Below, one piece after another: positions 15,546 to 44,307 of a stretch of DNA of 64,000 nucleotides. Position numbers and translations under genes: made by a program. The notes below the pieces were generated by a model. That model had not been told where the DNA came from. It was given only the letters and a program-made list of their open reading frames with translations, and did not search any database. Origin of the DNA: Metallibacterium scheffleri (lineage in GTDB: Bacteria > Pseudomonadota > Gammaproteobacteria > Xanthomonadales > Rhodanobacteraceae). Position 1 is the first letter of the stretch; every line of letters begins with the position of its first letter. The stretch spans positions 1,451,865 to 1,515,864 of the forward strand of contig NZ_LDOS01000002.1 in assembly GCF_002077135.1 (NCBI RefSeq), written 5' to 3'.

Positions 15546-15771
15546 GTCACACCTCGGCATCGGGATCGCGGCGCGTGGCCGCAGTGCCGCCAGCATAGAC
15601 CGCCGCCGTCAAGCGCGCGTGCTGCGCGGTTTACGATTCGCGCGGAGTGCGCGGCCAGACCGGCATGCGCATCCCTGTGCTCGTCATCCCCGCGCTCGTC
15701 CCCGCGCTCGTCATCCCCGCGCACCCACGGCTCGATAGGGGTCGGGAAGGCTCATCACCTCCCCGCCCTCC

Positions 15772-15804
15772 GAACCGTGCGTGCGGTTCTCCCGCACACG
15801 GCTC
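15772..15804 (-). ncRNA. Group II intron domain V
   Basis: On the minus strand the 33-nt hairpin starts GAGCCGTGTGCGGG, has a GAGA-type tetraloop region and closes with CGCACGGTTC. This is the standard catalytic domain V core, 3' of the maturase gene and followed by a domain VI-like stem. Confidence 0.88.
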
Positions 15805-15821
15805 TCCAGTGGGTGGTTGCT

Positions 15822-29530: not shown

Positions 29531-29537
29531 CCGATGC

Positions 29538-29606
29538 CCAGGGGAGAAGGCATTCCTCCCGGCCTCGCGGCCGAACCACCTTATTCCGGTTGATGATGCC
29601 TGCTGC
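29538..29606 (+). promoter_or_regulatory. Fluoride riboswitch (crcB motif) upstream of crcB
   Basis: The conserved elements of the crcB RNA appear in order: GGGGAGAAGGCATTCCTCCC as the first stem with its GGCAUUCCUCC portion, a GGCC/GGCC hairpin, GAACC, and the 3' strand GGTTGATGATGCCTGCTG, which contains the conserved UGAUGAUGCCU. Bound fluoride stabilises the pseudoknot. The 3' strand overlaps the first arm of the terminator at 29599-29636, so ligand binding would let transcription continue into crcB. The gene downstream is a fluoride exporter, which confirms the assignment. Confidence 0.9.
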
Positions 29607-29636
29607 GCCGATCGCCTCGGCGCGGCAGGTTTTGTT
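29599..29636 (+). terminator. Riboswitch-controlled terminator before crcB
   Basis: The arms CCTGCTGCGCCGA (29599-29611) and TCGGCGCGGCAGG (29617-29629) form a strong hairpin followed by TTTTGTT. The first arm is shared with the conserved 3' strand of the fluoride aptamer, giving mutually exclusive folds. Confidence 0.8.
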
Positions 29637-29678: not shown

Positions 29679-30065
29679 ATGAACCCGTCTGTACTTGCCG
29701 GTATCGGTATCGGCGCCGTACTCGGAGCCTGGCTGCGCTATGGCTTCGCCTTGATGCTCAACCCGCTGTTCCCCACGCTGCCACTGGGCACCGTCGCCGC
29801 CAATCTGCTGGGCGGTTTCCTGATGGGCATCGCGATCAGCAATTTCCCGCCTTACATGGGCCTGCCGGTGGAACTGCGCCTGGCCTTCGCTACCGGCTTC
29901 CTTGGCGGCCTGACCACGTTTTCCACGTTCGACGCTGAGTCGGTGACGCTGTGGATGCGCGGACAATGGGGCTGGGCCATGGCGCATATGGGCGTGCATG
30001 TGCTGGGCGGCATCGGGTTCTGCCTGGCCGGTATCGGGCTGGGCCGTTTGCTGACACGTCACTGA
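29679..30065 (+). CDS. crcB: Fluoride-specific export channel CrcB/Fluc
   Basis: A 128-residue, four-helix membrane protein that exports fluoride as a dual-topology dimer. Family motifs are present: GAVLGAWLRYGF at the N-terminus, the N-containing pore stretch GTVAANLLGGFLMG, and GFLGGLTTFSTFD with the Thr-Thr-Phe-Ser central motif and the phenylalanines lining the pore. The ATG at 29679 with GAGGAG upstream is chosen; a GTG at 29637 falls in the terminator tail and is unlikely. It is the first gene after a fluoride riboswitch and is followed after 15 bp by a DUF190 gene. Confidence 0.96.
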   Translation: MNPSVLAGIGIGAVLGAWLRYGFALMLNPLFPTLPLGTVAANLLGGFLMGIAISNFPPYMGLPVELRLAFATGFLGGLTTFSTFDAESVTLWMRGQWGWAMAHMGVHVLGGIGFCLAGIGLGRLLTRH

Positions 30066-30080
30066 GAGGAGACAAACTCC

Positions 30081-30431
30081 ATGATCGGATGTGCGTTGCG
30101 CTTTTACATGCATGAAAACCAGAAGCACCAAGGCAAGCTGGTCTACGAATGGCTGCTGGAGCAGGCCAAACGCCGCGGCATCCATGGCGGCTCGGCGTTC
30201 CGCGCCATCGCCGGCTTCGGGCGTCATGGACAACTGCACGAGCAGGCGTTTTTCGAGATGGCGGCCAACCTCACCGTGCTGGTCGAATTCGTGGTGAGCA
30301 AGGACGAGGCCGATGCGCTCATCGCGCTGGCCGAGGAGGACAAGGCGCCGTTGTTCTGGAGCCGCGCGCCGGTCGAATTCGGCAATACCGTGCCGCATGC
30401 CCAGCGGCCACCACCGCAGTCACCCGCTTGA
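30081..30431 (+). CDS. DUF190 family protein
   Basis: A 116-residue protein of the DUF190 family, a PII-like alpha/beta fold (LRFYMHENQKHQGKLVYEWL, KRRGIHGGSAFRAIAGFG, LTVLVEFVVSKDEADALIAL). DUF190 genes are often next to crcB in bacteria, suggesting a role in fluoride export, perhaps as a regulator of the channel. GAGAGGAG precedes the start. It is the second gene of the riboswitch-controlled operon. Confidence 0.9.
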   Translation: MIGCALRFYMHENQKHQGKLVYEWLLEQAKRRGIHGGSAFRAIAGFGRHGQLHEQAFFEMAANLTVLVEFVVSKDEADALIALAEEDKAPLFWSRAPVEFGNTVPHAQRPPPQSPA

Positions 30432-30463: not shown

Positions 30464-31087
30464 ATGAGTCTCGAACTGATCCTGATCCGCCACGGCGCAG
30501 TGCCCGGCATCGATCCGCCGCGCTTCCGCGGCCGCACGGATCTGGCGCTGACCGATCTGGGCAAGGCGCAGGCGCTGGCGATGGGCGAATGGGTGCGTGA
30601 ACACTTCACGGTGACCGCGATCCATGCCAGCCCGCTGTCGCGCTGCATCGACACCGCCAACGCCATCGCCGGCCCGCTGGCACAACCGGTGCGCGCCAGC
30701 ATGGACTTGACCGACTGCGATTACGGCCGCTGGACCGGCCTGACCCATCGCGAGGCTGCGGCGCGTGATCCGGAGCCGTTTCGCGCGTGGCAGCGCGACC
30801 CCGGCATCAACCCGCCGCCGGATGGCGAAACCCTGCGTCAGGTCGAAGTGCGCGTGACGGGCGCCGTGCACGCCATCCTGCGTCGCCACGCCGGCGGCAG
30901 CGTGGTGCTGGTCACCCACGACGCGGTGATCCGCGTGCTGGTCCTGAATCTGTTGCAGGCACCGCTGAGCCATTACGCCAGCCTGCGCCAGGACCCGACC
31001 GCGGTGAACCGGATCGAGGTGCGCGCCGACGGAGGCTATCGCATCGCCCTGCTCAACAGCACCGCGCATCTGTCGCGCGCGGCCTGA
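30464..31087 (+). CDS. Histidine phosphatase family protein (phosphoglycerate-mutase fold)
   Basis: A 207-residue enzyme with the phosphohistidine motif LILIRHGAVPGI, the second Arg in SPLSRCIDTA, Glu-type contacts in DLTDCDYGRWTGLTHREAAA and the second catalytic His in VVLVTHDAVIR. CobC/PhoE-like family members dephosphorylate small metabolites or nucleotides. It follows DUF190 by 32 bp and probably belongs to the fluoride operon. Because fluoride blocks phosphoryl-transfer enzymes, a phosphatase here could replace or bypass an inhibited step; this is speculation. Confidence 0.88.
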   Translation: MSLELILIRHGAVPGIDPPRFRGRTDLALTDLGKAQALAMGEWVREHFTVTAIHASPLSRCIDTANAIAGPLAQPVRASMDLTDCDYGRWTGLTHREAAARDPEPFRAWQRDPGINPPPDGETLRQVEVRVTGAVHAILRRHAGGSVVLVTHDAVIRVLVLNLLQAPLSHYASLRQDPTAVNRIEVRADGGYRIALLNSTAHLSRAA

Positions 31088-31115: not shown

Positions 31116-33071
31116 TCAAATCACGCCCACACCGAGCACGATGATCAGCAATATACCGATCAGTGCGAGATAGAGATTCATGTCGCCCGACTGCAGCACG
31201 ACGATGCGATCCGACAGCCACCACACCATGCGCGTGAGCGGACGGAACAGGCGCGACTCGAACAAGGGCGCGATGCGCTGCTCGAAGCTGAGCCGGCGCA
31301 CGAAATATTCGCGCTCGACGTGCTCGTGCTCCATGTCCAGGCGCGGCCGGTAGATGAAGCTGTAGAACACCTGCACCGCGTGCGAGAACGTCAGCGCCGT
31401 GGTGGCCGCGCGCGGCGACGGCGGATTGCCGCCAAACCACACCGGCGCGCGGCGCACGCCGTGGCGGCGCCTGGACCACAACGCCAGCGCGATCGGCAGC
31501 AGCGCCAGCAGCGGCATCACGATGACCAGCAACGTCGGCGAGATGAAGGCGAAGTGCGCGCTCAACGGCACCAGCAACAAGCCGCTGCGCAGTTGCATCG
31601 ACGACTGCGCGAACCAGTGCTGCGCCACCGGATCCAGCGCGTACAGCCACCACGGCATGCCCACCGCCAGCGCCAACACCAGTGCGCCCAGCAAGCCCAC
31701 GGCCAGGGCATGACCACGCGGTACTGGCCCGGTGTGCGCAGCGGGCGCGCCCTGCGTGCCCAGGCCGATGATCTTGACGAACGTGGCGTAGGCCAGCGCC
31801 GCGGTCAGCGCCAGACCGACGCCGCCCAGCGACAAGGTCAGACGCCCGGCCAGATCCGGCACCTGGAAGTTCTGGAACAAGGTCTGGAAGGCGAACCACT
31901 CGCTGACGAAGCCCGCCTGCGGCGGCATGCCGGCCAGACTCATGCCGGCGAAAACGATGCCGACGCCGTAGGTCCACAAGCTGGCGCGCAGCAAACCCGA
32001 CTGCTGCAGCCGATACGTGCCACGCGCGCGATAGGCGCCATCGGCACCGAGCAACAGGGCGCCCTTGGACAGGCTGTGTCCAGCCAGATGCAGCAGGCCC
32101 ACGATCCAGGCCAGCATGCTCAGATCGCCCAGGCCGGCACTGCGGAAAATCAGCGCGGCGCCGAGCAGCAGCGTGGCGATGGCGGCATTCTCGGCCGATG
32201 ACAAACCCAGCAACTGGCGCCAGTCGTCGGTCTGCAGCGCATACAGCACCGCCAAAATCGCGCTGAACGCAGCCACCGCCACGGTGATGATGCCGAGCAT
32301 TTCCTCCGGCGGCAGCCACACCAGCAGCGCGCGCGCCAGCGCGAACCACGCGGCGTTGAGCACGATGCCCGACAGCAGGCTGGCGCTGGCGCCGCTGCCA
32401 CTGGCATAGGCGCCGGCGAACCACTCGTAGAACGGCAGCAAGCCCAGCTTGGCGCCGAAACCGATCAGCATCAGCAAGCCAAGACCGATCACAGCCGCGC
32501 CCGGGAGAGCGATCAGCCCCGCCGCGAATCCATCCATGGCCATGCCGCCGCCGAGCAGCGCGAAAGTCAGCCAGCCCGCGAGCAGCGCAACCGCGCCGAC
32601 TTCCAGCAAGCCCAGCATCAGCAGCGTGGCATGACCGCCGTCGTCGCTGATGCCCAGGCGCTCGGACAGCAGCATCAGCGCGCCGCCCAGGCTCATCAAC
32701 TCCCAGGCGATCAGAAACGCCACGCCACCGTGCACACCCATCACGCCCAGCGCCCCGAGGATGGCCGCGATCGCGCCCACGTACCACACGCGCAGGCGTG
32801 CCGCCGGACTGCCCAATGCCAGCGCCAATGTCGCCGGGATCGCGCCGAACAGGCTCAGCCACAAGCCCGCGCCATCGAGCGCGAAGTGCGTCGCGGAGAC
32901 GCCAGCCAGACGCAGATGCTCGGCGCCGACCAGCGCACCCGCGCAGGCGATGATCAGGGCGATGCCACCGAGCACCGCCAGCACGCGGGTCAGGCCCGGC
33001 CATGGCAGCACGATGGCGACCGTGGCCGCCAGCAGCAGCGTCAGCACTGCCAGGGTGAACAGCTCAGCCAT
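31116..33071 (-). CDS. Proton-translocating antiporter-like subunit (HyfB/NuoL-type)
   Basis: A 651-residue protein with about 14-16 transmembrane helices. It resembles HyfB/HycC of hydrogenase-4: a conserved Glu in VAFLIAWELMSLGGA, the Lys channel element GFGAKLGLLPFYEWFAGAYA, a second element LAGHSLSKGALLLGADG and a HyfB-type C-terminus (VWFGGNPPSP, EYFVRRLSFEQRIAPLFESR). Such subunits carry protons or sodium across the membrane, driven by the redox module. It is the last gene of the six-gene riboswitch-led operon and overlaps the preceding gene by 8 bp. The start at 33071 follows GGAGGACGCCGCG. Confidence 0.9.
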   Translation of the reverse strand: MAELFTLAVLTLLLAATVAIVLPWPGLTRVLAVLGGIALIIACAGALVGAEHLRLAGVSATHFALDGAGLWLSLFGAIPATLALALGSPAARLRVWYVGAIAAILGALGVMGVHGGVAFLIAWELMSLGGALMLLSERLGISDDGGHATLLMLGLLEVGAVALLAGWLTFALLGGGMAMDGFAAGLIALPGAAVIGLGLLMLIGFGAKLGLLPFYEWFAGAYASGSGASASLLSGIVLNAAWFALARALLVWLPPEEMLGIITVAVAAFSAILAVLYALQTDDWRQLLGLSSAENAAIATLLLGAALIFRSAGLGDLSMLAWIVGLLHLAGHSLSKGALLLGADGAYRARGTYRLQQSGLLRASLWTYGVGIVFAGMSLAGMPPQAGFVSEWFAFQTLFQNFQVPDLAGRLTLSLGGVGLALTAALAYATFVKIIGLGTQGAPAAHTGPVPRGHALAVGLLGALVLALAVGMPWWLYALDPVAQHWFAQSSMQLRSGLLLVPLSAHFAFISPTLLVIVMPLLALLPIALALWSRRRHGVRRAPVWFGGNPPSPRAATTALTFSHAVQVFYSFIYRPRLDMEHEHVEREYFVRRLSFEQRIAPLFESRLFRPLTRMVWWLSDRIVVLQSGDMNLYLALIGILLIIVLGVGVI

Positions 33072-33903
33072 CGCGGCGTCCTCCGTGCAGATGCTGTTCG
33101 CTGCGCCCGAGCAGCAGCAGCAAGGCGTGCATGATCGCGGCCGGATTGGGCGCGCAACCCGGCAGATACACATCCACCGGAATCAGCCCCTGCAATCCGC
33201 TGCCGCCGGCGTAGCCCTCGCGCGCCATGCCGCCGCTGATCGCGCAGGCACCCATCGCCATCACCCACTTCGGCTCGGGCATCGCCTCCCAGGCGGCACG
33301 CAACGGCTCGCGCATCGGTTCGGTGACGGTGCCGGTGACCAGCAGCAGGTCGGCCGCGCGCGGCGAGGCAGTGAAGAAAATGCCGAGCCGATGCAGGTTG
33401 TAGAACGGATTCATCAGCGCCTGCAGCTCCGACTCGCAGCCGTTGCAGGAACCGGCATCGACATGACGGATGTGCAGGCTGTGCCTGAAACGCCGCGCGA
33501 TGACGTTTTGCAGTTCCAATGCCAAGGTGTCGCGCGCGGGCGTCCCCTGTTGCGGGTCGAACCGCAGGTCGGCGCGCGCACGCACGGCCAGCGCCCAGTC
33601 ATGGCTCGCCTGCAGCGTGCCCACGGGACACACCTCGACGCAGCGTTGGCAGGCGATGCAGCGGCCATAGTCCAGCGCGATGCCATGGCGCGGCGCAGCG
33701 TCGGCGCCACCGGGCACCTCGACCTGATGCAGCGCGTCGGTGGGACACGCCGCCACGCAGGCCGCGCAGGATTCGGCGCAAGCCTGCGCAGTGACGCGCG
33801 GCATGCCCTGCACGCCGTGCTGGCCGGCGGCTTGCGCATCGCCCTCGGGCCAGTCGCTGGTGGCGCGGCCGCGCGCGAGTCCGAAGAAAGTCCATAACGC
33901 CAT
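33064..33903 (-). CDS. Fused ferredoxin / NuoB-like small subunit (HyfH-HyfI type)
   Basis: A 279-residue protein. Residues 55-115 form a two-cluster [4Fe-4S] ferredoxin domain (CAESCAACVAACPTDAL and CIACQRCVEVCPVGTL). The C-terminal half is a NuoB/HycG-like subunit with the cluster ligands CNGCESELQALMNP, MGACAISGG and YLPGCAPNPAAI, all four cysteines kept. In E. coli Hyf these are separate proteins, so this is a fusion. It should carry electrons between the large subunit and a soluble donor or acceptor. It starts 10 bp after the large-subunit gene. Confidence 0.9.
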   Translation of the reverse strand: MALWTFFGLARGRATSDWPEGDAQAAGQHGVQGMPRVTAQACAESCAACVAACPTDALHQVEVPGGADAAPRHGIALDYGRCIACQRCVEVCPVGTLQASHDWALAVRARADLRFDPQQGTPARDTLALELQNVIARRFRHSLHIRHVDAGSCNGCESELQALMNPFYNLHRLGIFFTASPRAADLLLVTGTVTEPMREPLRAAWEAMPEPKWVMAMGACAISGGMAREGYAGGSGLQGLIPVDVYLPGCAPNPAAIMHALLLLLGRSEQHLHGGRRDG

Positions 33904-33913
33904 GATCCGGTCC

Positions 33914-35383
33914 TCAGCGGTCGCAGCCGGCGATGGTGCTGCCGAAGCTGGCTTCATTGATGGCGTAATCCATCATGTTGCTGCCATGCACGGTGTACGG
34001 AAACACGCGCCAGTTCGAATACGAGGGCGATTTGATCTTCACCCGGGCCAGGCGCGCGTGCTGGTCCAGATGCACCACGTAGTACAACGAGCCGCGCGGC
34101 GACTCGGCCCAGCCCAGCCCGATGCCGTCAGCCGGCGCGGCGCACGGCGCATGCACCGCGCCGGCAGGCAGATCGCGCAGCAGACGCCGCAACAACACGA
34201 ACGCTGCGCGCAACTCGCCGCAGCGCACGCGATAGCGCGCATAGGCATCGCCGTCCTGATGCAGCGTCACGACGGGGGGATGCTCGGCGTAGGCCGCATA
34301 GGGATGGTCGCGGCGCAGATCACGGTCCAGCCCGGAGGCCCGTTCAACCGGACCGGTGGCACCCTGATCGAAGGCCGCCGCGCGCGGCAACGGTCCGGTA
34401 GTGTGCAGGCGATCGAGAAAGGTCGACGTGCGTTCGAGCTGGTCGAGGTAGCGCAGACTCGCCGCTTCGAGCCTGTCGAGGCGCGGCAGGAAATCCGATT
34501 CCATGGCCAGATCGCGGCGCAGGCCGCCCGGGCGCAGCACGTTCATCAGCAGGCGCTGGCCGCACGCGCGCGCGGCCAGTTGCTTGGCCTGTTCCTCGAG
34601 CAGACGGCCCTCCGCCTGACCCACCTTGAGCGTGGTCGCATCCGCCAGCGCGCCGAGGTAATGCAGGTGGTTGTACACGCGCTCCAGTTCACCCAACACG
34701 CTGCGCCACGCGCGCGCGCGCGGTGGCGCCTGCACGCCGGCGGCGTCCTCGATGGCTTGGCAGAAAGCCAGCGCGTGCGCCAACGCGCCAACGCCGGAAA
34801 CGCGCTCGGCGAGGATGACCGCGGCGTCCGGCGCGAGACCCTGGAAGCGCTGCTCCATGCCGCGATGCTTGAGAAACAAACGCGGCTGATAACGCAGGAT
34901 GCGCTCGCCGATGTAGAAGAAGCGGAACTGCGCCGACTCGAACACGTCGGCGCGGATCGGTCCGAAGTCCAGTTCCTGCACGTCGTCGCCAGTGACTTCC
35001 GGCAGCACGTGCGGCGCCGGAAAACGCGCGGCGCCGTGCGTCAGCGTGAATGGCGCCGGCGCGTCCCCGCGTTCGATCACCAGCGGGAATGGTTCGGGGT
35101 GATTGAGCACGCCGACGCCGGACAGGTCCTGCATTTCGCGCTCGTACCAGCCCAGCAGAGGCACGTGCGCCGCCATGCTCGGCAAACCGCCGGGCGGCAC
35201 ATCCACGCGCCACAGCTCGAATGCTTTGCCGGCACCGGGCGCGGCGAGATAGCAAGCCTCGTCGCGACCATCGATCTGTGTCGCGTACACCATCTGCATG
35301 CGTCCGCCCTGCGCCAGCAGATGCTCGATGCTGCCGGGAATGTCGCTGGCATGCAGATGCAAAGTCAGCATGGCAGTGCTCAC
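33914..35383 (-). CDS. NuoCD/HycE-like large subunit lacking [NiFe] ligands
   Basis: A 489-residue protein with a NuoC-like N-terminal domain (HVPLLGWYEREMQDLSGV) and a NuoD/HycE-like domain (ELDFGPIRADVFESAQFRFF, LFLKHRGMEQRFQG). In [NiFe] hydrogenases the first ligand pair lies in RxCGxC; here the matching stretch is ERVSGVGALAHALAF, with neither cysteine. The second pair, DPCxxC near the C-terminus, is replaced by FGSTIAGCDR. A [NiFe] site cannot form, so this is an Ehr-like or quinone-reactive complex. GTG at 35383 overlaps the upstream stop (GTGA); ATG at 35371 is the alternative. Confidence 0.9.
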   Translation of the reverse strand: MSTAMLTLHLHASDIPGSIEHLLAQGGRMQMVYATQIDGRDEACYLAAPGAGKAFELWRVDVPPGGLPSMAAHVPLLGWYEREMQDLSGVGVLNHPEPFPLVIERGDAPAPFTLTHGAARFPAPHVLPEVTGDDVQELDFGPIRADVFESAQFRFFYIGERILRYQPRLFLKHRGMEQRFQGLAPDAAVILAERVSGVGALAHALAFCQAIEDAAGVQAPPRARAWRSVLGELERVYNHLHYLGALADATTLKVGQAEGRLLEEQAKQLAARACGQRLLMNVLRPGGLRRDLAMESDFLPRLDRLEAASLRYLDQLERTSTFLDRLHTTGPLPRAAAFDQGATGPVERASGLDRDLRRDHPYAAYAEHPPVVTLHQDGDAYARYRVRCGELRAAFVLLRRLLRDLPAGAVHAPCAAPADGIGLGWAESPRGSLYYVVHLDQHARLARVKIKSPSYSNWRVFPYTVHGSNMMDYAINEASFGSTIAGCDR

Positions 35384-36834
35384 GACGTGGCCCCCAGCTG
35401 ATGCGCGATCTGCGCGAACCACTGCGCGAACAGCGGCGGCCACCACAAACCCAATAGCAGCAGTGCGGCGACCGCCAGCAGCATCGGGATCCAGGTCATC
35501 ACGCCGGGCAGCGGGCCGCTCGGCGCAGGTGCCTCGGTCGGCACGTACATCTGCCGGAAGTGGTTGAGGAAACCGATAAAGATCACGATCAGCAGCAACA
35601 GGAACAGGACCGCCACCCAGCGCGTGCCGCCGTGCATCCAGCCCGCCATCAACACGCTCAGTTCGCTGCGGAACAAACCGAACGGCGGCGCGCCGGTGAT
35701 GGCCACCGCGCCGGCCAGCCACAGCCAGGCGAGACCCGGCATCGCCATCGGCAGGTTGCGCATCTGCTGCATGTCATGCGTGCCGTAACGATGCACCGCG
35801 CTGCCCGCGCCGATGAACATCAGCGTCTTGTTGATGCTGTGATTGAGCATGTGGTATAGCGCGCCGAACACGCCCAGCAGACCGCCGAAACCGAAACCCA
35901 GCGCGATCACGCCCATGTGCTCGACGCTGGAATAAGCCAGCATGCGTTTGAGCCCGCGCTGGCGCATGATGAACAGCGCGCCGACGACCAGCGAGGCCAC
36001 GCCCAGCGCGATCAGGATGCGATGCGGCCACATCCCGTGTCCGGCGATGTCGGTGGCCGCGAGAAAGCGCACGATGCCCAGCATCGCGCAATTCAGCAGC
36101 GCCCCGGAGAGCATCGCCGACACCGGCGCCGGACCCTCGCTGTGCGCATCGGGCAGCCAAGTGTGCATGGGCGCGAGTCCGGCCTTGACGCCGTAACCAA
36201 CCAGCGCCAGAAGAAAACCCAACTGCAGCAGCACCGCCGGCATCTTCGGCGCGATCGCATCCAGCGTCGACCAGTCCAGCGTATAGGTCGGCCCCAGCAC
36301 GAACGTGCCGCCCCAGTACAGCAGCACCGTGCCCAGCAGCGCGATGCTGATGCCGCCGGAAACAATGATGATGTACTTCCATGCCGCTTCCATGCTTTCG
36401 GCGCGGCGCTCGTATCCGACCAGGAACGTGCTCACCAGGGTGGTCATCTCGATGCCGATCCAGTACACGCCGATCATGTTGGCCATGGACGCGGCGAACA
36501 TGGTCCAGGCGAACAACGCGAACAGCGCGTAGAAATTGGGCAACCGTTTGGCATCCTCGCCTTGGCGCATGTAGTCCACGGCGAAGAACGAAGCCAGCAG
36601 GTACACCAGCGCCACGCACATCAGCACCCAGGCGCCGATGCGATCCACGTACAGCATCTGCTCGAAGTAGATGCGCGGCGCGGCCGCGCCGATCAGCAAC
36701 AGGATGCTGACCGGAAAACACACCAGCGCAGCCAGCAGGTTGACCCATTGCATCAGCCGCCGCACCAGCAGCGACCACAGCACCGACACCAAGGGCGCCG
36801 TCAGCAGCACGATGATCAGCGTGGAGGCGCTCAT
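35380..36834 (-). CDS. Proton-translocating antiporter-like subunit (HyfF/NuoN-type)
   Basis: A 484-residue protein with about 14 helices, related to HyfF and MrpD/NuoN. Key channel residues are present: Glu in YWIGIEMTTLVSTFLVGY, Lys in LVGYGVKAGLAPMHTWLPDA, and the Lys/His region YSSVEHMGVIALG and NHSINKTLMFIGAG. It gives the complex a second antiporter-like module beside HyfB. It begins one base after the stop of the preceding gene, and its stop overlaps the start of the large-subunit gene. Confidence 0.92.
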   Translation of the reverse strand: MSASTLIIVLLTAPLVSVLWSLLVRRLMQWVNLLAALVCFPVSILLLIGAAAPRIYFEQMLYVDRIGAWVLMCVALVYLLASFFAVDYMRQGEDAKRLPNFYALFALFAWTMFAASMANMIGVYWIGIEMTTLVSTFLVGYERRAESMEAAWKYIIIVSGGISIALLGTVLLYWGGTFVLGPTYTLDWSTLDAIAPKMPAVLLQLGFLLALVGYGVKAGLAPMHTWLPDAHSEGPAPVSAMLSGALLNCAMLGIVRFLAATDIAGHGMWPHRILIALGVASLVVGALFIMRQRGLKRMLAYSSVEHMGVIALGFGFGGLLGVFGALYHMLNHSINKTLMFIGAGSAVHRYGTHDMQQMRNLPMAMPGLAWLWLAGAVAITGAPPFGLFRSELSVLMAGWMHGGTRWVAVLFLLLLIVIFIGFLNHFRQMYVPTEAPAPSGPLPGVMTWIPMLLAVAALLLLGLWWPPLFAQWFAQIAHQLGATS

Positions 36835-36835
36835 C

Positions 36836-37522
36836 TCAACCCACCAGCTTCTGCAGCGCCTGGCTGCCGGTGGCACCGACCGAGGCCATCAGATACCTCA
36901 CCAGCACCGCGAAACAAGTCACCGCGACGAGCAAATCGAACAGCAGCACCAGCTCGATCATCAGCGGCATGCCCGGCACCAGGATCTGCGAGCCGAGGAA
37001 AATGCCGTTCTCCAGCATGAGGATGCCGAGGATCGAGCTCACCGCCTCGCGCCGGATCGCCAGCATCAGGAAGCCGATCAGCTTGATCGACAACATCACC
37101 GTCAGCGCCAGCAGCACCACGCGCGTCTCGATGTCCAGCGCGTGGCCGATGCGATACGCCACCACCACGCCGAAGATCACCAGCACGGCACCCAGTACCA
37201 GCGCGGTGGACGGCTGCACGATCTCGTGCAGTTCGCGGTTGACGTGCAGGCGCTTGAGCACCCACAGCAGCATCAGCGGCAGCACCAGGCCGCGGAACAG
37301 CGCGGTCAGCGCGGCGACGAAGTACAACTCGGTATAGCCACCGGCCCAGGCCATCAGCGCCGAGAGGATCGCGATCAGCCACGACTGCACGGCGAAGGCC
37401 AGCATGTAGTCCTTGAGCCAGCGCGAGCCCAGCATCACGAACGACAACACCAGCGCACCGATCGCGATCAGACTGAAGATCGAGGCCAACAGCGGGCTCA
37501 GATGCAAGGCAACCATGGGCAT
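36836..37522 (-). CDS. HyfE-like membrane subunit (NuoK-related)
   Basis: A 228-residue protein with about seven helices. HyfE/HycD-type elements are visible: LKDYMLAFAVQSWLIAILSA, TALFRGLVLPLMLLWVLKRL and ILGILMLENGIFLGSQILV, the last including the NuoK-type Glu. It starts in a TGATG overlap with the upstream HyfC-like gene. An internal ATG two codons in is equally possible. Confidence 0.88.
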   Translation of the reverse strand: MPMVALHLSPLLASIFSLIAIGALVLSFVMLGSRWLKDYMLAFAVQSWLIAILSALMAWAGGYTELYFVAALTALFRGLVLPLMLLWVLKRLHVNRELHEIVQPSTALVLGAVLVIFGVVVAYRIGHALDIETRVVLLALTVMLSIKLIGFLMLAIRREAVSSILGILMLENGIFLGSQILVPGMPLMIELVLLFDLLVAVTCFAVLVRYLMASVGATGSQALQKLVG

Positions 37523-38463
37523 CACCGGATCTGGTTGGCGACCATCGCCAACACGGCAAACACGAAGGCCGCCGCCAGTGGCTCCTGGTAGCGATAGAAG
37601 CGCAGGCGCGACTGCACGGTTTCCACGCCGATCACCGCACCAGCGATGATGGCGAACTTGAGCGCGATCGCGCCCAGCGTGCCCAGCACGCCGATCGCGC
37701 TGCCTTGCGCCGACAGGCCCCAGGGCAGGATGAACACGTTGGCGAAAATCGTGTAGAGGATGAACTGCTTCATCATCCCCGCCCACTTCAGCAGCGCCAG
37801 CAGCGGGCCGGAATACTCCAGCACCCGCGCCTCCTCGATCATGTACACCTCGATATGCGTGCTGGAGTGGATCGGCAGGCGATCGGTCTCGACCAGCAGC
37901 AGCACGAAGAACGCCGCCACCAGGAACAGATGCGCCGGGCTCCAGTACACCTCGGGATGCCGCACCAGCTCGTGGTTGACCACGAACGGCAGCATCGCCT
38001 GCGCCATCAGCGTGATGCCGACGAACACCAGGATCAGGATGGGTTCGGCGAGGATGCCGATCAGCACCGTGCGCGCCGACCCCATGCCGCCGTAGCTGCT
38101 GCCCGAGTCCATGCCCGCCAGGTTGATGAAGAACGAACCCAGGGTGAGGATCAGGCCGCCGCCGAGGATGTCGCCCATGTCCGACAGCGGCAGCGGATAG
38201 TTGGTGAGCACCGGGATCAGGATCGGCACCGTGAGCATTGCGGTGAACGCCACGAACGGCGCCGCCACGAACACCCAGCTCGCCGAATCCGGCAGCACCG
38301 TCTGCTTGCCGAACAGCTTGATCAGATCGCGCCAGGGTTGCAGCAGGCCGGGACCGGTCGCGCGCTGCACGCGCTCCTCGTAGCGCAGGATGAAACCCTG
38401 CAACAGCGGCGCTGCCAGCAGCACCGTGAGCACCTGACCGATCTGCAGCAGTGCGTCACGCAT
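37522..38463 (-). CDS. HyfC/NuoH-like membrane anchor subunit
   Basis: A 313-residue, eight-helix protein of the NuoH/HycD family that links the peripheral redox arm to the ion-pumping membrane arm. Characteristic stretches are ERVQRATGPGLLQPWRDLIK, the acidic loops VETDRLPIHSSTHIEVYMIEEARVLE (given as positions about 205-230, rich in Glu/Asp) and GVETVQSRLRFYRYQEPL. The ATG at 38463 with GGGG eight bases upstream matches family N-termini; ATGs at 38502 and 38547 are in frame. It is the first gene of the operon, about 100 nt after the fluoride riboswitch. Confidence 0.92.
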   Translation of the reverse strand: MRDALLQIGQVLTVLLAAPLLQGFILRYEERVQRATGPGLLQPWRDLIKLFGKQTVLPDSASWVFVAAPFVAFTAMLTVPILIPVLTNYPLPLSDMGDILGGGLILTLGSFFINLAGMDSGSSYGGMGSARTVLIGILAEPILILVFVGITLMAQAMLPFVVNHELVRHPEVYWSPAHLFLVAAFFVLLLVETDRLPIHSSTHIEVYMIEEARVLEYSGPLLALLKWAGMMKQFILYTIFANVFILPWGLSAQGSAIGVLGTLGAIALKFAIIAGAVIGVETVQSRLRFYRYQEPLAAAFVFAVLAMVANQIR

Positions 38464-38557
38464 CCAGACGGCCCCATGCCGGAGCGGAGGTTTGGCGAAC
38501 ATGTTCCTTGTGCGCCGCTTGCAGCGTACTTCTGCGAGGCATGCCATCACTCCCGGT

Positions 38558-38617
38558 GGTGGGTCTCGTAGGAGTCATCAGCCCGTTGCGGGCATTTCAG
38601 GCGAACTCCATCGCCCG
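38558..38617 (-). promoter_or_regulatory. Fluoride riboswitch (crcB motif) upstream of the hyf-like operon
   Basis: On the minus strand the RNA reads GGCGATGGAGTTCGCC (38615-38600), a short A-rich joint, the hairpin GCCC-GCAAC-GGGC (to 38581) and then TGATGACTCCTAC (38580-38568). These are the conserved crcB-motif segments in their proper order and spacing, arguably closer to consensus than the copy before crcB. Downstream GGGAGT (38554-38549) could pair with ACTCC of the aptamer's 3' strand, a possible expression platform. No T-rich terminator is seen, so control may be translational. A strong promoter lies immediately upstream. Confidence 0.9.
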
Positions 38618-38635
38618 CGATTGCGTTGTGCTTCG

Positions 38636-38664
38636 ATTACATGCCGCCGTGGGGAACTTGTCAA
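38636..38664 (-). promoter_or_regulatory. Sigma70-type promoter for the riboswitch-hyf-like operon
   Basis: TTGACA (38664-38659) and TGTAAT (38641-38636) on the minus strand are separated by exactly 17 bp, an almost perfect consensus. The predicted start near 38629 is about 12 nt before the riboswitch. The divergent cfa gene shares this intergenic region. Confidence 0.75.
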
Positions 38665-38729: not shown

Positions 38730-39851
38730 GTGTCCTCGGCAAACGTGCTCAAGACTCGAGCTGAAACCTTGCTGCAATCCGCCGGACTGCGCTTGAACGG
38801 TCCTGACACCTGCGACCCGCAGGTGCATGACGAGCGCCTGTACGCGCGCGTGTTCGCGCATGGCTCGCTGGGTTTCGGCGAGGCCTACATGGACGGCTGG
38901 TGGGATGTCGCCGATCTGACCGGCATGCTCGCGCGCGTCATTGGCGCGCACATCGATGACCGGCTGCACAACCTCGACACGGTGCTTTCGCACCTGCGCG
39001 CGCGCTGGCTCAACCTGCAGCGCGGACGCCATGCCTGGGAAATCGGCAAGCGCCACTACGACACCGGCAACGATCTGTTCGAGGCCATGCTCGGCAAGCG
39101 CCTGGTCTACAGCTGCGGCTACTGGGCCGCAGCCGACAATCTGGACGCTGCGCAGGAAGCCAAGCTCGACCTGGTTTGCCGCAAGCTGCAACTCAAACCC
39201 GGCATGCACGTGCTCGACATCGGCTGCGGCTGGGGCGAAGCACTGAAGTTCGCCGCCGAGCGCTACGGCGTCAGCGGCGTGGGCGTCACCGTGTCCAAGG
39301 CACAGGCCGAGTGGGCGCAAAACCTGTGTCGTGGACTGCCGATCGAGATCCGGCTGCAGGATTATCGTGAAGTCCGCGAGACCTTCGACGCGGTGTATTC
39401 CATCGGCATGTTCGAGCATGTCGGCGGGCGCAACTACCGCACCTATTTCAAAAGCGTGCGCGAGTGTCTCAAGCCCGACGGTTTGTCCGTGCTGCATACC
39501 ATCGGCAACAACGACTCGCCCAGCACGCCCGATCCATGGATCGAGAAATACATCTTTCCCAATTCGATGATTCCCGCGGCGAGCCAGGTGGCGACGGCGC
39601 TGGAGGGACTGTTCGTGGTCGAGGACTGGCACAACTTCGGCACCGATTACGACCGCACCCTGTGCGCTTGGAAGCAGAACTTCGATGCGGCGTGGCCGCG
39701 TCTCGCCGCGCACTACGACGGGCGCTTCAAGCGCATGTGGCACTTCTATCTGTGCACTTCGGCGGCGGTATTCCGCACGCGCCGCGACCAGTTGTGGCAA
39801 CTCACGCTGTCGCCCAACGGCGTGCCGGGCGGTTACCGCGTGCCGCGCTGA
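38730..39851 (+). CDS. cfa: Cyclopropane-fatty-acyl-phospholipid synthase
   Basis: A 373-residue enzyme that adds a methylene group from SAM to unsaturated acyl chains in membrane lipids, a change that protects against acid and other stress. Motifs: LGFGEAYMDGWWDV in the N-terminal domain, HYDTGNDLFEAMLG, SAM motif VLDIGCGWGEALKFAAERYG and SIGMFEHVGGRNY. It starts with GTG at 38730 after AAGGAG. It is divergent from the fluoride-controlled operon and shares its upstream DNA. Confidence 0.95.
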   Translation: MSSANVLKTRAETLLQSAGLRLNGPDTCDPQVHDERLYARVFAHGSLGFGEAYMDGWWDVADLTGMLARVIGAHIDDRLHNLDTVLSHLRARWLNLQRGRHAWEIGKRHYDTGNDLFEAMLGKRLVYSCGYWAAADNLDAAQEAKLDLVCRKLQLKPGMHVLDIGCGWGEALKFAAERYGVSGVGVTVSKAQAEWAQNLCRGLPIEIRLQDYREVRETFDAVYSIGMFEHVGGRNYRTYFKSVRECLKPDGLSVLHTIGNNDSPSTPDPWIEKYIFPNSMIPAASQVATALEGLFVVEDWHNFGTDYDRTLCAWKQNFDAAWPRLAAHYDGRFKRMWHFYLCTSAAVFRTRRDQLWQLTLSPNGVPGGYRVPR

Positions 39852-40017: not shown

Positions 40018-41163
40018 ATGAAGCTCACCACTGCGCGCCTTGCCGCGCCACTGGCCGCCATCGTTCTGCTTGCTGCCTGCAGCAAGGGCCCTGCCCCGAC
40101 CCCACCGCCACCGCAAGTGGATGTGATCACCGCCAAGGCGGTCGATCTGCCTGTCGTGCAGACCATGGTCGGGCGCCTCGCACCCACGCTCACCGCCCAG
40201 GTCAACGCGCGCGTGACCGGCAATGTGCTGAGCAAGGATTACCAGGAAGGCGGCGAGGTCAAGGCCGGCCAGTTGCTGTTCCAGATCGATCCGGCGCCGC
40301 TCAAGGCCGCGCTTGATGCGCAACTCGCCGCGCTGGCTCAGGCGCGCGCCAGCGCCACCAACGCGGAGTTGATCGCCGCGCGCGACAAGACCCTGGTGGG
40401 CCGCGGCCTGATCGCCAGACAGACCTATGACACCGACGCGGCCACGGCACGCACCACGGCCGCCGCGGTGCGGCAGGCCGAAGCCAACGTCGAGGCCGCG
40501 CGACTGAATCTGTCCTACGCCCGCGTCACCGCGCCCATCAGCGGCCGCGCCGGCATCGCCAACGTCACCGTCGGCGCGCTGGTCAGCGCCACCTCGGCCA
40601 CGCCGATGACCACGATCGAGCGCCTCGATCCGATCTATGCCTTGTTCAGCGCCCCCTATGCGCAGGTCGCGCCCTTGCAGCAGGCCGAAGCCTCCGGTGC
40701 GTTCAAGACACCTGGCGACGCGCCCAGCGTGCATATCATCCTGCCGGATGGCAGTACCTATGCCGAGACGGGTCGGCTCGATTTCACCGACATGGCGGTC
40801 GACCCGCAGACCGGCGCGGTGCAGTTGCGCGCGATTTTCCCCAACCCGCAACGCCTGCTGCTGCCAGGTCTGTTCGTGACCGTCAAGCTCAGCGCCGGGG
40901 TCATGCACAACGTGTTTCTGATTCCGCAGGCGGCGGTGCAGCGTGACCCGCAGGGCGCTTACGTGTTCGTGGTGGGTGCCGGCGACAAGGTCGCGCAGCG
41001 CCCGGTCACCCTGGGCGAGATGCACGGTACCGACTGGGTGGTGACCCACGGCTTGGCCACCGGGGAGCGCGTGATCGTCAACGGCATCCAGAAGGTGCAT
41101 CCGGGCGGCATCGCCATCGTGGCAGCGCCGCAAGCCGGGGCTGCACCCGGCACGGCGCGCTGA
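40018..41163 (+). CDS. RND efflux periplasmic adaptor lipoprotein
   Basis: A 381-residue membrane-fusion protein. The lipobox LLAACSKG ends the signal sequence, so it is anchored by lipid. The barrel-sandwich (lipoyl) halves are at LTAQVNARVTGNVLSKDYQE and LNLSYARVTAPISGRAG, with an alpha-hairpin between them and the beta-barrel at FSAPYAQV to GLFVTVKL. It is of MexA/AcrA type and bridges the RND pump to an outer-membrane channel. The pump gene follows after 12 bp. No TolC-like gene is adjacent. Confidence 0.93.
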   Translation: MKLTTARLAAPLAAIVLLAACSKGPAPTPPPPQVDVITAKAVDLPVVQTMVGRLAPTLTAQVNARVTGNVLSKDYQEGGEVKAGQLLFQIDPAPLKAALDAQLAALAQARASATNAELIAARDKTLVGRGLIARQTYDTDAATARTTAAAVRQAEANVEAARLNLSYARVTAPISGRAGIANVTVGALVSATSATPMTTIERLDPIYALFSAPYAQVAPLQQAEASGAFKTPGDAPSVHIILPDGSTYAETGRLDFTDMAVDPQTGAVQLRAIFPNPQRLLLPGLFVTVKLSAGVMHNVFLIPQAAVQRDPQGAYVFVVGAGDKVAQRPVTLGEMHGTDWVVTHGLATGERVIVNGIQKVHPGGIAIVAAPQAGAAPGTAR

Positions 41164-41175
41164 GGAGCCTGCGCC

Positions 41176-44100
41176 ATGCCCAAGTTCTTCATCGATCGCC
41201 CGATCTTCGCCTGGGTGATCGCCATCCTGATCTGCCTCGCCGGCATCGCGTCGATCTACCGCCTGCCGGTCGAGGCGTACCCCGACATCGCGCCGCCCAG
41301 CGTGGTGATCAGCGCCAGCTATCCGGGCGCCAGCGCGCAGGTCGTGCAGCAGGCGGTGACCCAGGTCATCGAGCAGCAGCTCACCGGCCTGGACAATCTG
41401 CTGTATTTCAGTTCCAGTTCCAGCGCCAACGGCAGTGCCAGCATCACCGTCACGTTCGAGAACGGCACCAACCTCGATATCGCCGCGGTGCAGGTGCAAA
41501 ACCGCGTGGCCGTGGCCTTGCCGCAGCTGCCCACGCAGGTGCAGGCGCTGGGCGTGCAGGTGAACAAGGCCAATGCCGGTTTCCTCGAAGTGGTGGCGTT
41601 GCGTTCAAGCAACCCCAACATCGACACCTATGCGCTGAACAACCTGGTGGCTTCGCAGGTGCTCGATCCGCTGGAGCGCATCCCCGGCATCGGCAGCGCC
41701 AACCAGTTTGGCTCGGAATACGCGATGCGCATCTGGCTGAACCCGCTCAAGCTGCAGGGTTACGACCTGTCCGCGACGGATGTGCAAAATGCCGTCGCCA
41801 GCCAGAACATCCAGACCGCCGCCGGTTCGCTGGGCGCGGCTCCCGCGGTGAAGGGGCAGGCGCTGACGGTGACGGTGAACGGCGAGAGCCGCTTCAGCAC
41901 GCCACAGCAGTTCGAGAACATCATCCTGCGCACCAACAGCAACGGCACCACGGTGCGGCTCAAGGATGTCGCGAAAGTGCAGTTGGCGCCCTACAGCTAC
42001 GGCTTCCTGAGCCTGTACAACGGCAAGCCGGTGGCCGGCATCGGCCTGCAGCTGTTGCCCGGCGCCAACGCGCTGCAGGTGGCCAAGGCCGTCGATGCCA
42101 AGATGGCGCAGCTGCAGCAGACCTTCCCGCACGGCGTCACCTGGTTCAAGCCCTACGACAGCACGACCTTCGTCAATGTTTCGATCGACGAAGTGGTGCA
42201 AACGCTGTTCGAGGCGATGGTGCTGGTGTTCCTGGTGATCTATCTGTTTTTGCAGAACCTGCGCGCCACGCTGATTCCCTCGCTGGTCGTGCCGGTGGCG
42301 CTGCTGGGCACCTTCGCCGGGCTGTATGTCGCCGGTTTCTCGATCAACATCCTCACCCTGTTCGCGATGGTGCTGGCCATCGGACTGGTGGTGGACGATG
42401 CCATCGTGGTGGTGGAAAACGTCGAGCGGCATATCACCGAGGAAGGTCTTGCCCCGCGCGAGGCCACGATCGTGGCCATGGAGCAGATCACCGGCGCGAT
42501 CATCGCCATCACCCTGGTGCTGTTCGCGGTATTCATCCCCGCCGCCCTGCTCAGCGGCAGCGTGGGCGTGATCTACCGGCAGTTCTCGCTGACCATCGCC
42601 ATCGCCATGCTGCTGTCCGCCACCATGGCGCTGAGCTTCACGCCGGCGCTGTGCGCCAGCATCATCAAACCCAACCAGCACGAGAACCGTTTGCTGGGCT
42701 GGTTCAACCGTTTGTTCGATCGTACCCAGCGCGCCTACATCACGCGTGTGCACCAGTCCATTCGGCATACCCCGCGCTGGATGCTGCTGTATCTGGTGCT
42801 GATCCTCGGCGCTGCGTGGCTGTTCACGCGGCTGCCATCGAGCTTCCTGCCCGAGGAGGATCAGGGCTACGCACTGGCCATCGTGCAGTTGCCGCCGGGC
42901 GCCACCATCGATCGCACCATCGGCGTGATGAACCAGATCAAGAACATCGTGGTCAAGAGTCCGGCGGTAACCGGCATGATGGAAATTGCCGGGTTCAGCT
43001 TCGTCGGCTCGGGCGAGAACACCGGCATGGGCTTCATCCGCCTCAAGCCGTGGGGCGAGCGCACCAAGGCGGACGAACAGATCGGCCCCTTCATGGCCTG
43101 GGCCAATCGCGCGTTGAGCGGTATCAAGGGCGCGCAGATCTTCGTGGTGAATCTGCCCACCATCCGCGGACTCAGCCAGTTCGGCGGCTTCGACATGGAG
43201 CTGGAAGATCGCGCCGGACTCGGCCATGACAAGCTGATGCAGGCGCAAGGCATGCTGCTGGCCAGGGCGGCCAAGACGCCATCGCTGATGGGCGTGCGCC
43301 CCAATGGTCTGCCCCCCGCGCCGCAATTGAAGCTGACCGTGGATCGCGTGCAGGCGGCCTCGATGGGACTTTCGGTCAGCGATGTTTATACCGCGCTGCA
43401 GTTGATGCTGGCGCCGGTTTACGTCAACGATTTCAACTACCAGGGCCGCGTGTTGCGCGTGTTGCTGGAAGCCGACGCGCCATTCCGCATGGGCCCGCAG
43501 GACCTCAACGACTTCTACACCGCCAGCAGCAACGGCAGCATGGTGCCCCTGTCCACCGTGGTGCACACCAAGTGGGAATTGGGCTCGCCTGCGCTGACCC
43601 GTTACAACGGCTACGGCTCGGTGGAAATCGTCGGCAATGCCGCGCCCGGCTACAGCTCGGGCCAGGCCATGACGGCGATGCAGAACATCGTCGACCATGA
43701 TTTGCCCAAGGGCATCGGGTATGAATGGACCGGGCAGTCCTACCAGGAAGTCTTGTCCGGACAACAGGCACCCGTCCTCTACACCCTGTCGATGATCGTG
43801 GTGTTCCTCGCACTGGCAGCCTTGTACGAAAGCTGGACGATTCCCATCGCGGTGTTGCTGGTAGTGCCCATGGGCGTGCTCGGATCCCTGCTGCTGACTT
43901 GGCTGCGCGGCCTGCCCGATGACATCTACTTCAAGGTGGGACTGATCGCGATCATCGGCCTGTCGGCCAAGAACGCGATCCTGATCATCCAGTTCGCGCA
44001 CGAGCTTCAGCAAAAGGGCATGGGCCTGATCGCAGCCACCCAGGAGGCCGCGCGCCTGCGCTTGCGCCCGATCCTGATGACCTCGATCGCCTTCATCCTC

Positions 44101-44307
44101 GGCGTGCTGCCGCTGGCGATCAGCAGTGGCGCCGGCGCCAACAGCCGCCACTCGATCGGCACCGGCGTCATCGGCGGCATGCTCGGCGCCACCATCATCG
44201 GCCTGCTGCTGATTCCAGTGTTCTACGTGGTCGTGCGCCGCCTCACCGGCGACAAGAGTGATGGCACCGAATCCACCGGCGACGACGTGATCCGGCCATT
44301 CGACTGA
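41176..44307 (+). CDS. RND-family multidrug efflux pump (AcrB/MexB type, HAE1)
   Basis: A 1043-residue inner-membrane pump with the full 12-helix RND layout: KFFIDRPIFAWVIAILICL at the start, two large periplasmic loops, and the proton-relay helix GLVVDDAIVVVENVERH with the two Asp residues. Other family stretches are LPSSFLPEEDQGY and LSAKNAILIIQFA. It trades protons for drugs in a tripartite complex with the adjacent adaptor. The outer-membrane component must be encoded elsewhere. No local regulator is present. Confidence 0.95.
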   Translation: MPKFFIDRPIFAWVIAILICLAGIASIYRLPVEAYPDIAPPSVVISASYPGASAQVVQQAVTQVIEQQLTGLDNLLYFSSSSSANGSASITVTFENGTNLDIAAVQVQNRVAVALPQLPTQVQALGVQVNKANAGFLEVVALRSSNPNIDTYALNNLVASQVLDPLERIPGIGSANQFGSEYAMRIWLNPLKLQGYDLSATDVQNAVASQNIQTAAGSLGAAPAVKGQALTVTVNGESRFSTPQQFENIILRTNSNGTTVRLKDVAKVQLAPYSYGFLSLYNGKPVAGIGLQLLPGANALQVAKAVDAKMAQLQQTFPHGVTWFKPYDSTTFVNVSIDEVVQTLFEAMVLVFLVIYLFLQNLRATLIPSLVVPVALLGTFAGLYVAGFSINILTLFAMVLAIGLVVDDAIVVVENVERHITEEGLAPREATIVAMEQITGAIIAITLVLFAVFIPAALLSGSVGVIYRQFSLTIAIAMLLSATMALSFTPALCASIIKPNQHENRLLGWFNRLFDRTQRAYITRVHQSIRHTPRWMLLYLVLILGAAWLFTRLPSSFLPEEDQGYALAIVQLPPGATIDRTIGVMNQIKNIVVKSPAVTGMMEIAGFSFVGSGENTGMGFIRLKPWGERTKADEQIGPFMAWANRALSGIKGAQIFVVNLPTIRGLSQFGGFDMELEDRAGLGHDKLMQAQGMLLARAAKTPSLMGVRPNGLPPAPQLKLTVDRVQAASMGLSVSDVYTALQLMLAPVYVNDFNYQGRVLRVLLEADAPFRMGPQDLNDFYTASSNGSMVPLSTVVHTKWELGSPALTRYNGYGSVEIVGNAAPGYSSGQAMTAMQNIVDHDLPKGIGYEWTGQSYQEVLSGQQAPVLYTLSMIVVFLALAALYESWTIPIAVLLVVPMGVLGSLLLTWLRGLPDDIYFKVGLIAIIGLSAKNAILIIQFAHELQQKGMGLIAATQEAARLRLRPILMTSIAFILGVLPLAISSGAGANSRHSIGTGVIGGMLGATIIGLLLIPVFYVVVRRLTGDKSDGTESTGDDVIRPFD

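Follow-up and report, generated by a model that had tools for sequence, protein, structure and literature searches.

The window, a stretch of 64,000 nucleotides from Metallibacterium scheffleri, probably carries an operon that is switched on by fluoride and encodes a nickel-free redox complex resembling complex I and belonging to the Ehr (energy-converting hydrogenase-related) group, which would pump ions, probably protons, and take part in fluoride defence. Relatives of this complex in other bacteria keep a fluoride riboswitch and the complex together, and the complex is therefore probably a respiratory ion pump acting against fluoride poisoning.

Promoter, aptamer and operon

The preliminary description of this DNA had placed a promoter, a crcB-motif aptamer and six complex I/Hyf-like genes in series on the minus strand, and had suggested a run of the Rfam model over the aptamer. 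The promoter (38636..38664, minus strand), comprising TTGACA at 38664-38659, 17 bases and TGTAAT at 38641-38636, was borne out by the sequence and by an alignment of the window with three relatives, in which TTGACA was identical in all four sequences and the -10 element was TGTAAT in three and TATAAT in one. A consensus promoter scanner returned 0 sites at this hyfC leader promoter, because it demands an A at the second -10 position. The aptamer (38562..38624, minus strand) matched the fluoride riboswitch model RF01734 along its whole length (model positions 1-64) with 58.4 bits, above the gathering score of 34, and an E-value of 1.3e-13, and by this covariance score the element is confirmed as a predicted fluoride riboswitch.

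Family matches were obtained for the frames behind the aptamer, in agreement with the six genes expected there, all on the minus strand and in the order C-E-F-G-I-B of the type A loci to which the window belongs. These are a hyfC/nuoH-like membrane subunit (37522..38463; PF00146, 113 bits), whose start, placed by the ends of its homologues, is probably at 38463; a hyfE-like membrane subunit (36836..37522), matching the hydrogenase 4 membrane subunit model NF008556 at 50 bits, short of the curated cut-off of 136; a hyfF-like antiporter-type subunit (35380..36834; PF00361, 175 bits); a HyfG-like large subunit with fused 30k and 49k parts and without Ni-Fe ligands (33914..35383; PF00346, PF00374 and PF00329); a small subunit in which a ferredoxin-type part (2x[4Fe-4S]) is fused to a NuoB/HyfI-like domain (33064..33957; PF01058 and Fer4 families), with 12 conserved cysteines; and a hyfB-like antiporter-type subunit (31116..33071; PF00361, 75 bits), which like the hyfF-like subunit has conserved Lys, Glu and His residues. 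Among the six genes there was none for an electron donor or acceptor, none for the NADH-oxidising subunits NuoE, NuoF and NuoG, and no counterpart of HyfA or HyfD. The earlier term 'hydrogenase-4-like' is valid for the homology of these genes only, because the Ni-Fe ligands are missing.

Association of the riboswitch with the complex across genomes

In a class-level sample of 369 genomes, 64 had a HyfG-like match at an E-value of at most 1e-20, at 82 places in total. Seven of these places were of type A, namely that of the window and six at 46-53% identity to it, and an Rfam riboswitch lay 2.8-2.9 kb upstream on the same strand at all seven. Of four type B places, three had an Rfam riboswitch and the fourth (L042) had one by a second model, R1, alone (30.8 bits), and among the Rfam matches listed none lay within 10 kb of the remaining 71 HyfG-like places. 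Seen from the side of the riboswitch, 10 of the 17 matches over the cut-off in these 64 genomes, which had been chosen for their HyfG-like proteins, headed a HyfG-like gene.

A scan of one genome per species gave 243 relatives, of which the best 80 were kept; according to their record titles these 80 derive from Gamma-, Beta- and Alphaproteobacteria and from Acidobacteria. Among them, the riboswitch was found just before hyfC in 67 of the 67 loci with at least 3.6 kb of sequence upstream of the large-subunit gene. Four loci with slightly less than 3.6 kb also carried a riboswitch before hyfC, and since such loci could count as hits only, the stricter figure of 67 of 67 is used here; the other nine of the 80 reach at most 3.1 kb upstream. 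The resulting 71 riboswitches were identified in 66 cases by R1 at an E-value of at most 0.01 and in five by the Rfam model over its cut-off. R1 was built on an RNAalifold structure with the pseudoknot stem in place of the Rfam stems and underrates aptamers of the ATGCC type, and the ten R1 matches before hyfC with fewer than 30 bits were all over the Rfam cut-off at the same coordinates. In the 38 genomes holding the first 40 loci, a match to RF01734 was present in 38 and over the cut-off in 37. The Ancylobacter dichloromethanicus genome (G391, locus L067) had 24 fluoride riboswitch matches, most of those listed lying on contig C49 at about 15-71 kb.

Other fluoride genes were present in 55 of the same best 80 loci, with crcB in 34, DUF190 in 25, eno in 24, a histidine phosphatase or phosphoglycerate mutase gene in 14, ppa in 8 and CLC in 6. 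The sister type C gave a different picture: in 21 loci of 18-20 kb each there was no riboswitch at an E-value of at most 0.01 (best E-value 0.082) and no crcB, DUF190, eno, ppa, CLC, phosphatase or cfa gene. NUDIX homologues were found in two of these loci (L147 and L151) and a dynamin-like homologue in one (L153), and an antiporter-type gene preceded hyfC in 20 of the 21, the last being cut by a contig end. The genome from which the window was taken also has a riboswitch-free homologue of type C (L043, G000:C1:190253-191998). Chance juxtaposition of riboswitch and complex was ruled out by the contrast between 67 of 67 loci and 0 of 21 type C loci.

The same division was apparent in a quick tree of 69 large subunits (long branches flagged: nuoCD, L128, L130 and L129), in which a single branch with an SH-aLRT value of 96 separated all 42 rows of the riboswitch clade (36 of type A, 4 of type B and 2 from Gram-positive plasmids) from 24 type C rows, two E. 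coli hydrogenases and NuoCD. The preliminary description had assigned the complex to the fluoride response and had proposed a survey of riboswitch-hyf pairs in related genomes; such pairs were found in every locus with enough upstream sequence, and together with the four shorter loci, the 0 of 21 in the sister type and the fluoride genes in 55 of 80 loci, the assignment is strongly supported at the level of sequence and gene neighbourhood.

A phylum-wide survey starting from the riboswitch gave 64 matches over the cut-off, and up to 5.5 kb of downstream sequence was retrieved for 60 of them, leaving out the window's own and those of G610, G721 and G562. None of these 60 riboswitches headed hyf-like genes, and 45 had crcB (34) or CLC (11) downstream. 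This speaks against the complex as a common partner of fluoride riboswitches in general; it is a specialised one.

Several individual loci differed in arrangement or setting. On a Mycobacterium branderi plasmid (L130:6058-14112), a riboswitch and a NUDIX gene were followed by the six subunit genes as C-E-F-G-I-B, next to genes for enolase and DUF190, so that an Actinobacterium shows this arrangement too. Plasmid NZ_CP066785.1 of Alicyclobacillus sp. ALC3 has a lone HyfG-like gene directly after a riboswitch of 47.4 bits (L128:11600-13302), and tblastn of this plasmid returned no other full subunit, with a HyfC-like stretch of 26-44 residues near 16.3 kb; the gene is either a remnant or has a function of its own. 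In plasmids of Burkholderia multivorans (L125) and B. cenocepacia (L126), the operon is part of fluoride islands that also have two enolase and two pyrophosphatase genes; the 41 kb fetched contained 10 and 11 Rfam riboswitches, respectively. As the B. cenocepacia plasmid is typed as conjugative, the island may be mobile. Paired MutS-like genes follow a fluoride riboswitch at L125:8455-11537 and have homologues in 24-25 of the 80 loci. Metagenome bin YP4.bin76 holds three type A large-subunit genes on three contigs (L065, L069 and L081), which represent either real copies or a mixed bin.

Loss of the Ni-Fe site and an altered pocket in the large subunit

An alignment of 90 large-subunit rows (88 distinct) with E. 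coli HyfG, HycE and NuoCD had cysteine in none of the 90 at any of the four Ni-Fe cysteine positions, which were occupied by Ser in 84, Ala in 5 and Val in 1; by Gly in 66, Asp in 21 and Ala in 3; by Thr in 82, Ser in 7 and Ala in 1; and by Gly in all 90. The C-terminus was a conserved Arg in every row, without the tail of HyfG and HycE that is the target of the maturation protease. No homologues of FdhF, HypD or HycI were found in the window or in the 89 loci, and HypD was absent from seven of nine whole genomes, the two with HypD being that of the window and one other.

These features bear on the reading found in print. Formate hydrogen lyase genes were named behind the crcB motif by Weinberg in 2010 (PMC2864571), and a review of 2024 repeats the link and reads it as formate oxidation (PMC11139923), so that the association mentioned in the preliminary description does have a published source. 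Under this reading the operon would encode a true formate hydrogenlyase or a [NiFe] hydrogenase of group 4, with formate oxidation giving energy under fluoride. Apart from the printed label, it draws on the closest solved structure, which by both sequence and fold is the formate hydrogenlyase subunit HycE, and on the presence of HypD in the window's own genome; set against the absent ligands and maturation tail in 90 of 90 rows, the missing FdhF, HypD and HycI homologues at the loci and the lack of HypD in most of the whole genomes, it is hardly credible. An identity as [NiFe] hydrogenase or formate hydrogenlyase was ruled out by ligands, tail and neighbouring genes: judged from their sequences, these complexes cannot be hydrogenases, and the label 'formate hydrogenlyase' does not fit them. 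The link of the riboswitch to 'formate hydrogen lyase' genes is thus not new, dating from 2010; what the riboswitch-controlled, nickel-free complex brings is a corrected identity and a testable function.

Changes were also found in the pocket where hydrogenases hold the metal. The structure paper on formate hydrogenlyase gives a list of catalytic and proton-path residues, terms HycE Asp529 strictly conserved and describes this canopy aspartate as needed for quinone reduction in complex I (PMC9474812). All 90 type A rows and all four type B rows have Gly at this position, and all 21 type C rows have Asn; given the Gly in all 90, the usual quinone chemistry cannot be taken for granted. In 89 of 90 rows Arg replaces the loop histidine (GPLH in HyfG), with the nearby pocket glutamate kept in all 90. 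Every one of the 90 type A rows retained His284, Arg395 and Arg478, and 86 of them retained Glu437, whereas Arg478 was lost in all four type B rows. The position of the quinone-site tyrosine of the 49-kDa subunit had Tyr in 65 rows, Phe in 24 (including the window) and Cys in 1; Tyr is present there in the E. coli hydrogenases as well. At the HycE Asp192 position (His in NuoCD), the 90 rows had Leu in 38, Val in 33, Phe in 8, Met in 7, Thr in 3 and one residue not listed. By these residues, the site matches neither a hydrogenase nor complex I.

An AlphaFold2 model of the large subunit (pLDDT 81, pTM 0.86) matched the fold of HycE first (TM 0.88 by query) and that of E. coli complex I next (0.84), and HycE was also the closest solved structure by sequence. 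The strands of the pocket (141-150 and 481-489) are modelled with low confidence, so that the model is uninformative about the pocket itself.

Two further readings were considered. In one, the complex would be a primary redox-driven extruder or sensor of fluoride (or HF), with the emptied Ni-Fe pocket serving as an anion site. The change of the cysteines to Ser, Thr or Gly, the loop histidine to Arg in 89 of 90 rows, and the Gly in place of the canopy Asp throughout types A (90 of 90) and B (4 of 4), where the sister type has Asn (21 of 21), could be so understood, and if this were true the riboswitch clade would represent a new functional class of complex I-like machine acting on fluoride. 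Such a machine is without precedent, however; all 90 rows retain the pocket glutamate, the four type B rows lack Arg478, 34 of the 80 loci encode CrcB and 6 encode CLC, and the low-confidence stretches of the model are the very places where the pocket is changed, which together make this reading very improbable. In the other, the complex would be a fluoride-tolerant stand-in for respiratory complex I, replacing an inhibited enzyme rather than adding a pump. This would parallel the second eno and ppa copies in the islands, extra enolase and pyrophosphatase copies being part of an experimentally tested fluoride operon of Enterobacter cloacae (PMC5533749), and the fold of the large subunit is close to that of complex I. 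Nevertheless, with no NADH-binding subunits in the operon, and with a canopy Gly in place of Asp and a hydrogenase-like CxxC proximal cluster that are both unlike complex I, a role as a stand-in is considered unlikely.

Retention of the iron-sulphur relay and of antiporter residues

The small subunit had all 12 iron-sulphur cysteines in every row that aligned (81-83 of 90, because nine rows were wrongly cut or truncated), and its proximal cluster had the hydrogenase-type CxxC spacing in the 81 readable rows, the corresponding cluster of complex I having an adjacent cysteine pair (PMC7684303). After rows covering less than 60% of the window's frame had been dropped (89 to 88 for the hyfF-like, 87 to 84 for the hyfB-like and 86 to 81 for the hyfC-like subunit), K222, H337, K341 and E396 of HyfF were conserved in 88 of 88 rows, and in HyfB K213, H337 and K341 were conserved in 84 of 84 and E396 in 83 of 84. 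By sequence, the electron wire and the ion path appear to be kept and the catalytic metal gone.

The two antiporter-type subunits with their conserved residues, and a report that Na+/H+ antiporters are common riboswitch-linked genes (PMC11139923), would also suit an Mrp-like H+/Na+ antiporter for pH homeostasis with a vestigial redox arm. The 12 cysteines in every aligning row would be unexpected in a vestige, and this reading is regarded as improbable. A vestigial redox arm as such was set aside as unlikely on the same retention of cysteines.

Relation to known complexes

Ehr complexes have been described as relatives of group 4 hydrogenases without Ni-Fe ligands and of suspected or unknown function (PMC6349859, PMC10284858). 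The present complex shares with them its group 4 homology, the missing Ni-Fe ligands and the antiporter-like subunits (HyfF and HyfB, PF00361), and differs in forming a separate clade with a riboswitch, the gene order C-E-F-G-I-B, the canopy Gly and a known chemical cue; its assignment to Ehr follows the published definition (PMC6349859, PMC10284858). With E. coli formate hydrogenlyase and hydrogenase 4 it has in common the subunits C, E, F, G, H+I and B and the fold of the large subunit, but not the Ni-Fe cysteines, the tail, nearby formate dehydrogenase or maturation genes, HyfA or HyfD. NuoCD of complex I likewise lacks the four Ni-Fe cysteines and has the same blunt C-terminus and a similar fold, the differences being the absence of an NADH module, the CxxC proximal cluster, and the canopy Asp to Gly and Lys to Arg changes. 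A further match by sequence was the Pyrococcus sulfane sulphur reductase MBS (6u8y_L), a relative that continues to drive ion movement although Ni-Fe ligands have been lost (PMC7684303). Of the four cysteines, two are still present in MBS, and its proximal cluster contains three cysteines (PMC7684303), whereas the present complex has none of the four Ni-Fe cysteines and a full set of cluster cysteines. A limited literature search found no paper joining a nickel-free or Ehr complex to fluoride riboswitches.

Leader RNA and switch logic

Between the aptamer and hyfC there is a 28-codon open frame (38456..38542, minus strand), absent from the preliminary description, which shares its last 8 bases, stop included, with the start of hyfC. 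It is preceded by a Shine-Dalgarno-like GGGAGT (38549..38554, minus strand), with which ACTCCT (38570..38575, minus strand), the 3' strand of the aptamer pseudoknot, may pair as an alternative partner. This ACTCCT:GGGAGT hairpin was present in the centroid fold of the window leader and absent from its minimum-energy fold, and the window leader was no more stable than its shuffles (z -0.48).

Across 72 leaders (those of 71 loci and the window), the 3' pseudoknot strand was able to pair downstream with at least 5 pairs in 59 and at least 6 in 51, mononucleotide shuffles of the downstream part giving about 2.9 for stems as long as those observed; the alternative pairing was not seen in 13 of the 72. 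The paired strands covaried, ACTCC occurring with GGAGT and ATGCC with GGCAT. By the labels of the script, the downstream arm was Shine-Dalgarno-like in 43 of the 72 leaders and was followed by a T run in 7, these being six Burkholderiales and L084. Most leaders can thus form the alternative pairing that an ON switch would have, mostly with a ribosome-binding site, as far as their sequences indicate. The logic would be that of the known RF01734 fluoride riboswitch, in which the 3' pseudoknot strand is also one arm of the alternative pairing; the difference is that the other arm is here mostly a Shine-Dalgarno sequence with a leader frame and not a terminator (43 against 7 of 72), overlapping terminators having been reported for many crcB-motif cases (Weinberg 2010, PMC2864571).

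Of 77 leaders, 60 had a short frame after a Shine-Dalgarno-like sequence, four of 81 (L055, L060, L091 and L123) having been dropped as no hyfC was obtained for them, and hyfC started 4 bases before the end of the short frame in 33 and 8 bases before it in 10, both counts coming from a search that favours frames ending near hyfC. The architecture is common, and the amino acids of the frame are conserved only among close relatives. The simplest reading would be that the frame is a translated relay coupling the switch to hyfC.

Proposed function

From the predicted riboswitch, the possible alternative pairing, the loss of the Ni-Fe ligands, the retention of iron-sulphur and antiporter residues and the co-inheritance of complex and riboswitch, we infer how the pairing and the coupling would work, what would donate and accept the electrons, which ion would move and in which direction, and how the cell would benefit. 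Without fluoride, the 3' pseudoknot strand would pair with the Shine-Dalgarno sequence of the 28-codon leader frame. Fluoride would dock the pseudoknot and so free the Shine-Dalgarno sequence, allowing the leader frame, and by coupling to it hyfC, to be translated. In the assembled complex, electrons would pass through three [4Fe-4S] clusters to the remodelled pocket where hydrogenases hold Ni-Fe, and the energy would move protons (or Na+) outward via the two antiporter-type subunits. This pumping would rebuild the membrane potential and the cytoplasmic pH, both of which are lowered by HF entry and needed for fluoride export by CrcB.

The entry of HF has been described as lowering both cell pH and proton-motive force, on which CrcB and CLC-F depend (PMC11139923). 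Restoration of the proton gradient, as already suggested before this analysis, may be the role of the complex, and the retained iron-sulphur and antiporter residues fit it; an inducible redox-driven pump likewise fits between export and replacement enzymes. If the complex is such a pump, fluoride defence includes an inducible energy supply beside these two. The findings argue against the printed reading of a fluoride-induced formate hydrogenlyase that gains energy from formate. They link one nickel-free clade with one chemical cue at each related locus whose upstream sequence is long enough, across Proteobacteria and Acidobacteria, with more distant members on Actinobacterial and Bacillota plasmids. 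This single cue offers a concrete handle on the role of an Ehr-type complex, and some of the genera concerned are represented by named isolates.

Neighbouring fluoride genes in the window

Convergent with the hyf-like operon, on the opposite strand, lies an operon of crcB, a DUF190 gene and a histidine phosphatase gene. It is headed by a second candidate fluoride aptamer (29534..29609, plus strand), which scored 33.0 bits with RF01734, one below the gathering score of 34, with an E-value of 1.4e-07 for 351 bases. A terminator-like hairpin of 14 pairs (29598..29630, plus strand; shuffles mean 0.3) overlaps the 3' part of this aptamer, and the context of crcB and terminator argues that the element works like a fluoride riboswitch. 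The genes are crcB, for a Fluc fluoride channel (29679..30065, plus strand; PF02537, 90 bits; NF010792, 125.1 bits at a cut-off of 125), the DUF190 gene (30081..30431, plus strand; PF02641, 73 bits) and the histidine phosphatase gene (30464..31087, plus strand; PF00300, 174 bits). The two aptamers, the hyf-like operon and the crcB operon form a small fluoride island.

Divergent from the hyfC riboswitch is a gene for cyclopropane fatty acyl phospholipid synthase (cfa; 38730..39851, plus strand; NF008686, 568 bits). A cfa gene 72% identical to it lies behind riboswitch-crcB-DUF190 in a genome of the same family (L218), and crcB-cfa follows a riboswitch on the Burkholderia multivorans plasmid (L125). 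The window's cfa is, on these parallels, probably a member of the fluoride island, and given its position behind riboswitch and crcB elsewhere, membrane modification may belong to fluoride defence. Outside the island, two frames of 381 and 1043 residues at 40018-44307 (plus strand) resemble, from a reading of their translations, an RND efflux adaptor and pump, and a match of 56.1 bits to the group II intron family RF00029 lies at 15735-15806 (minus strand).
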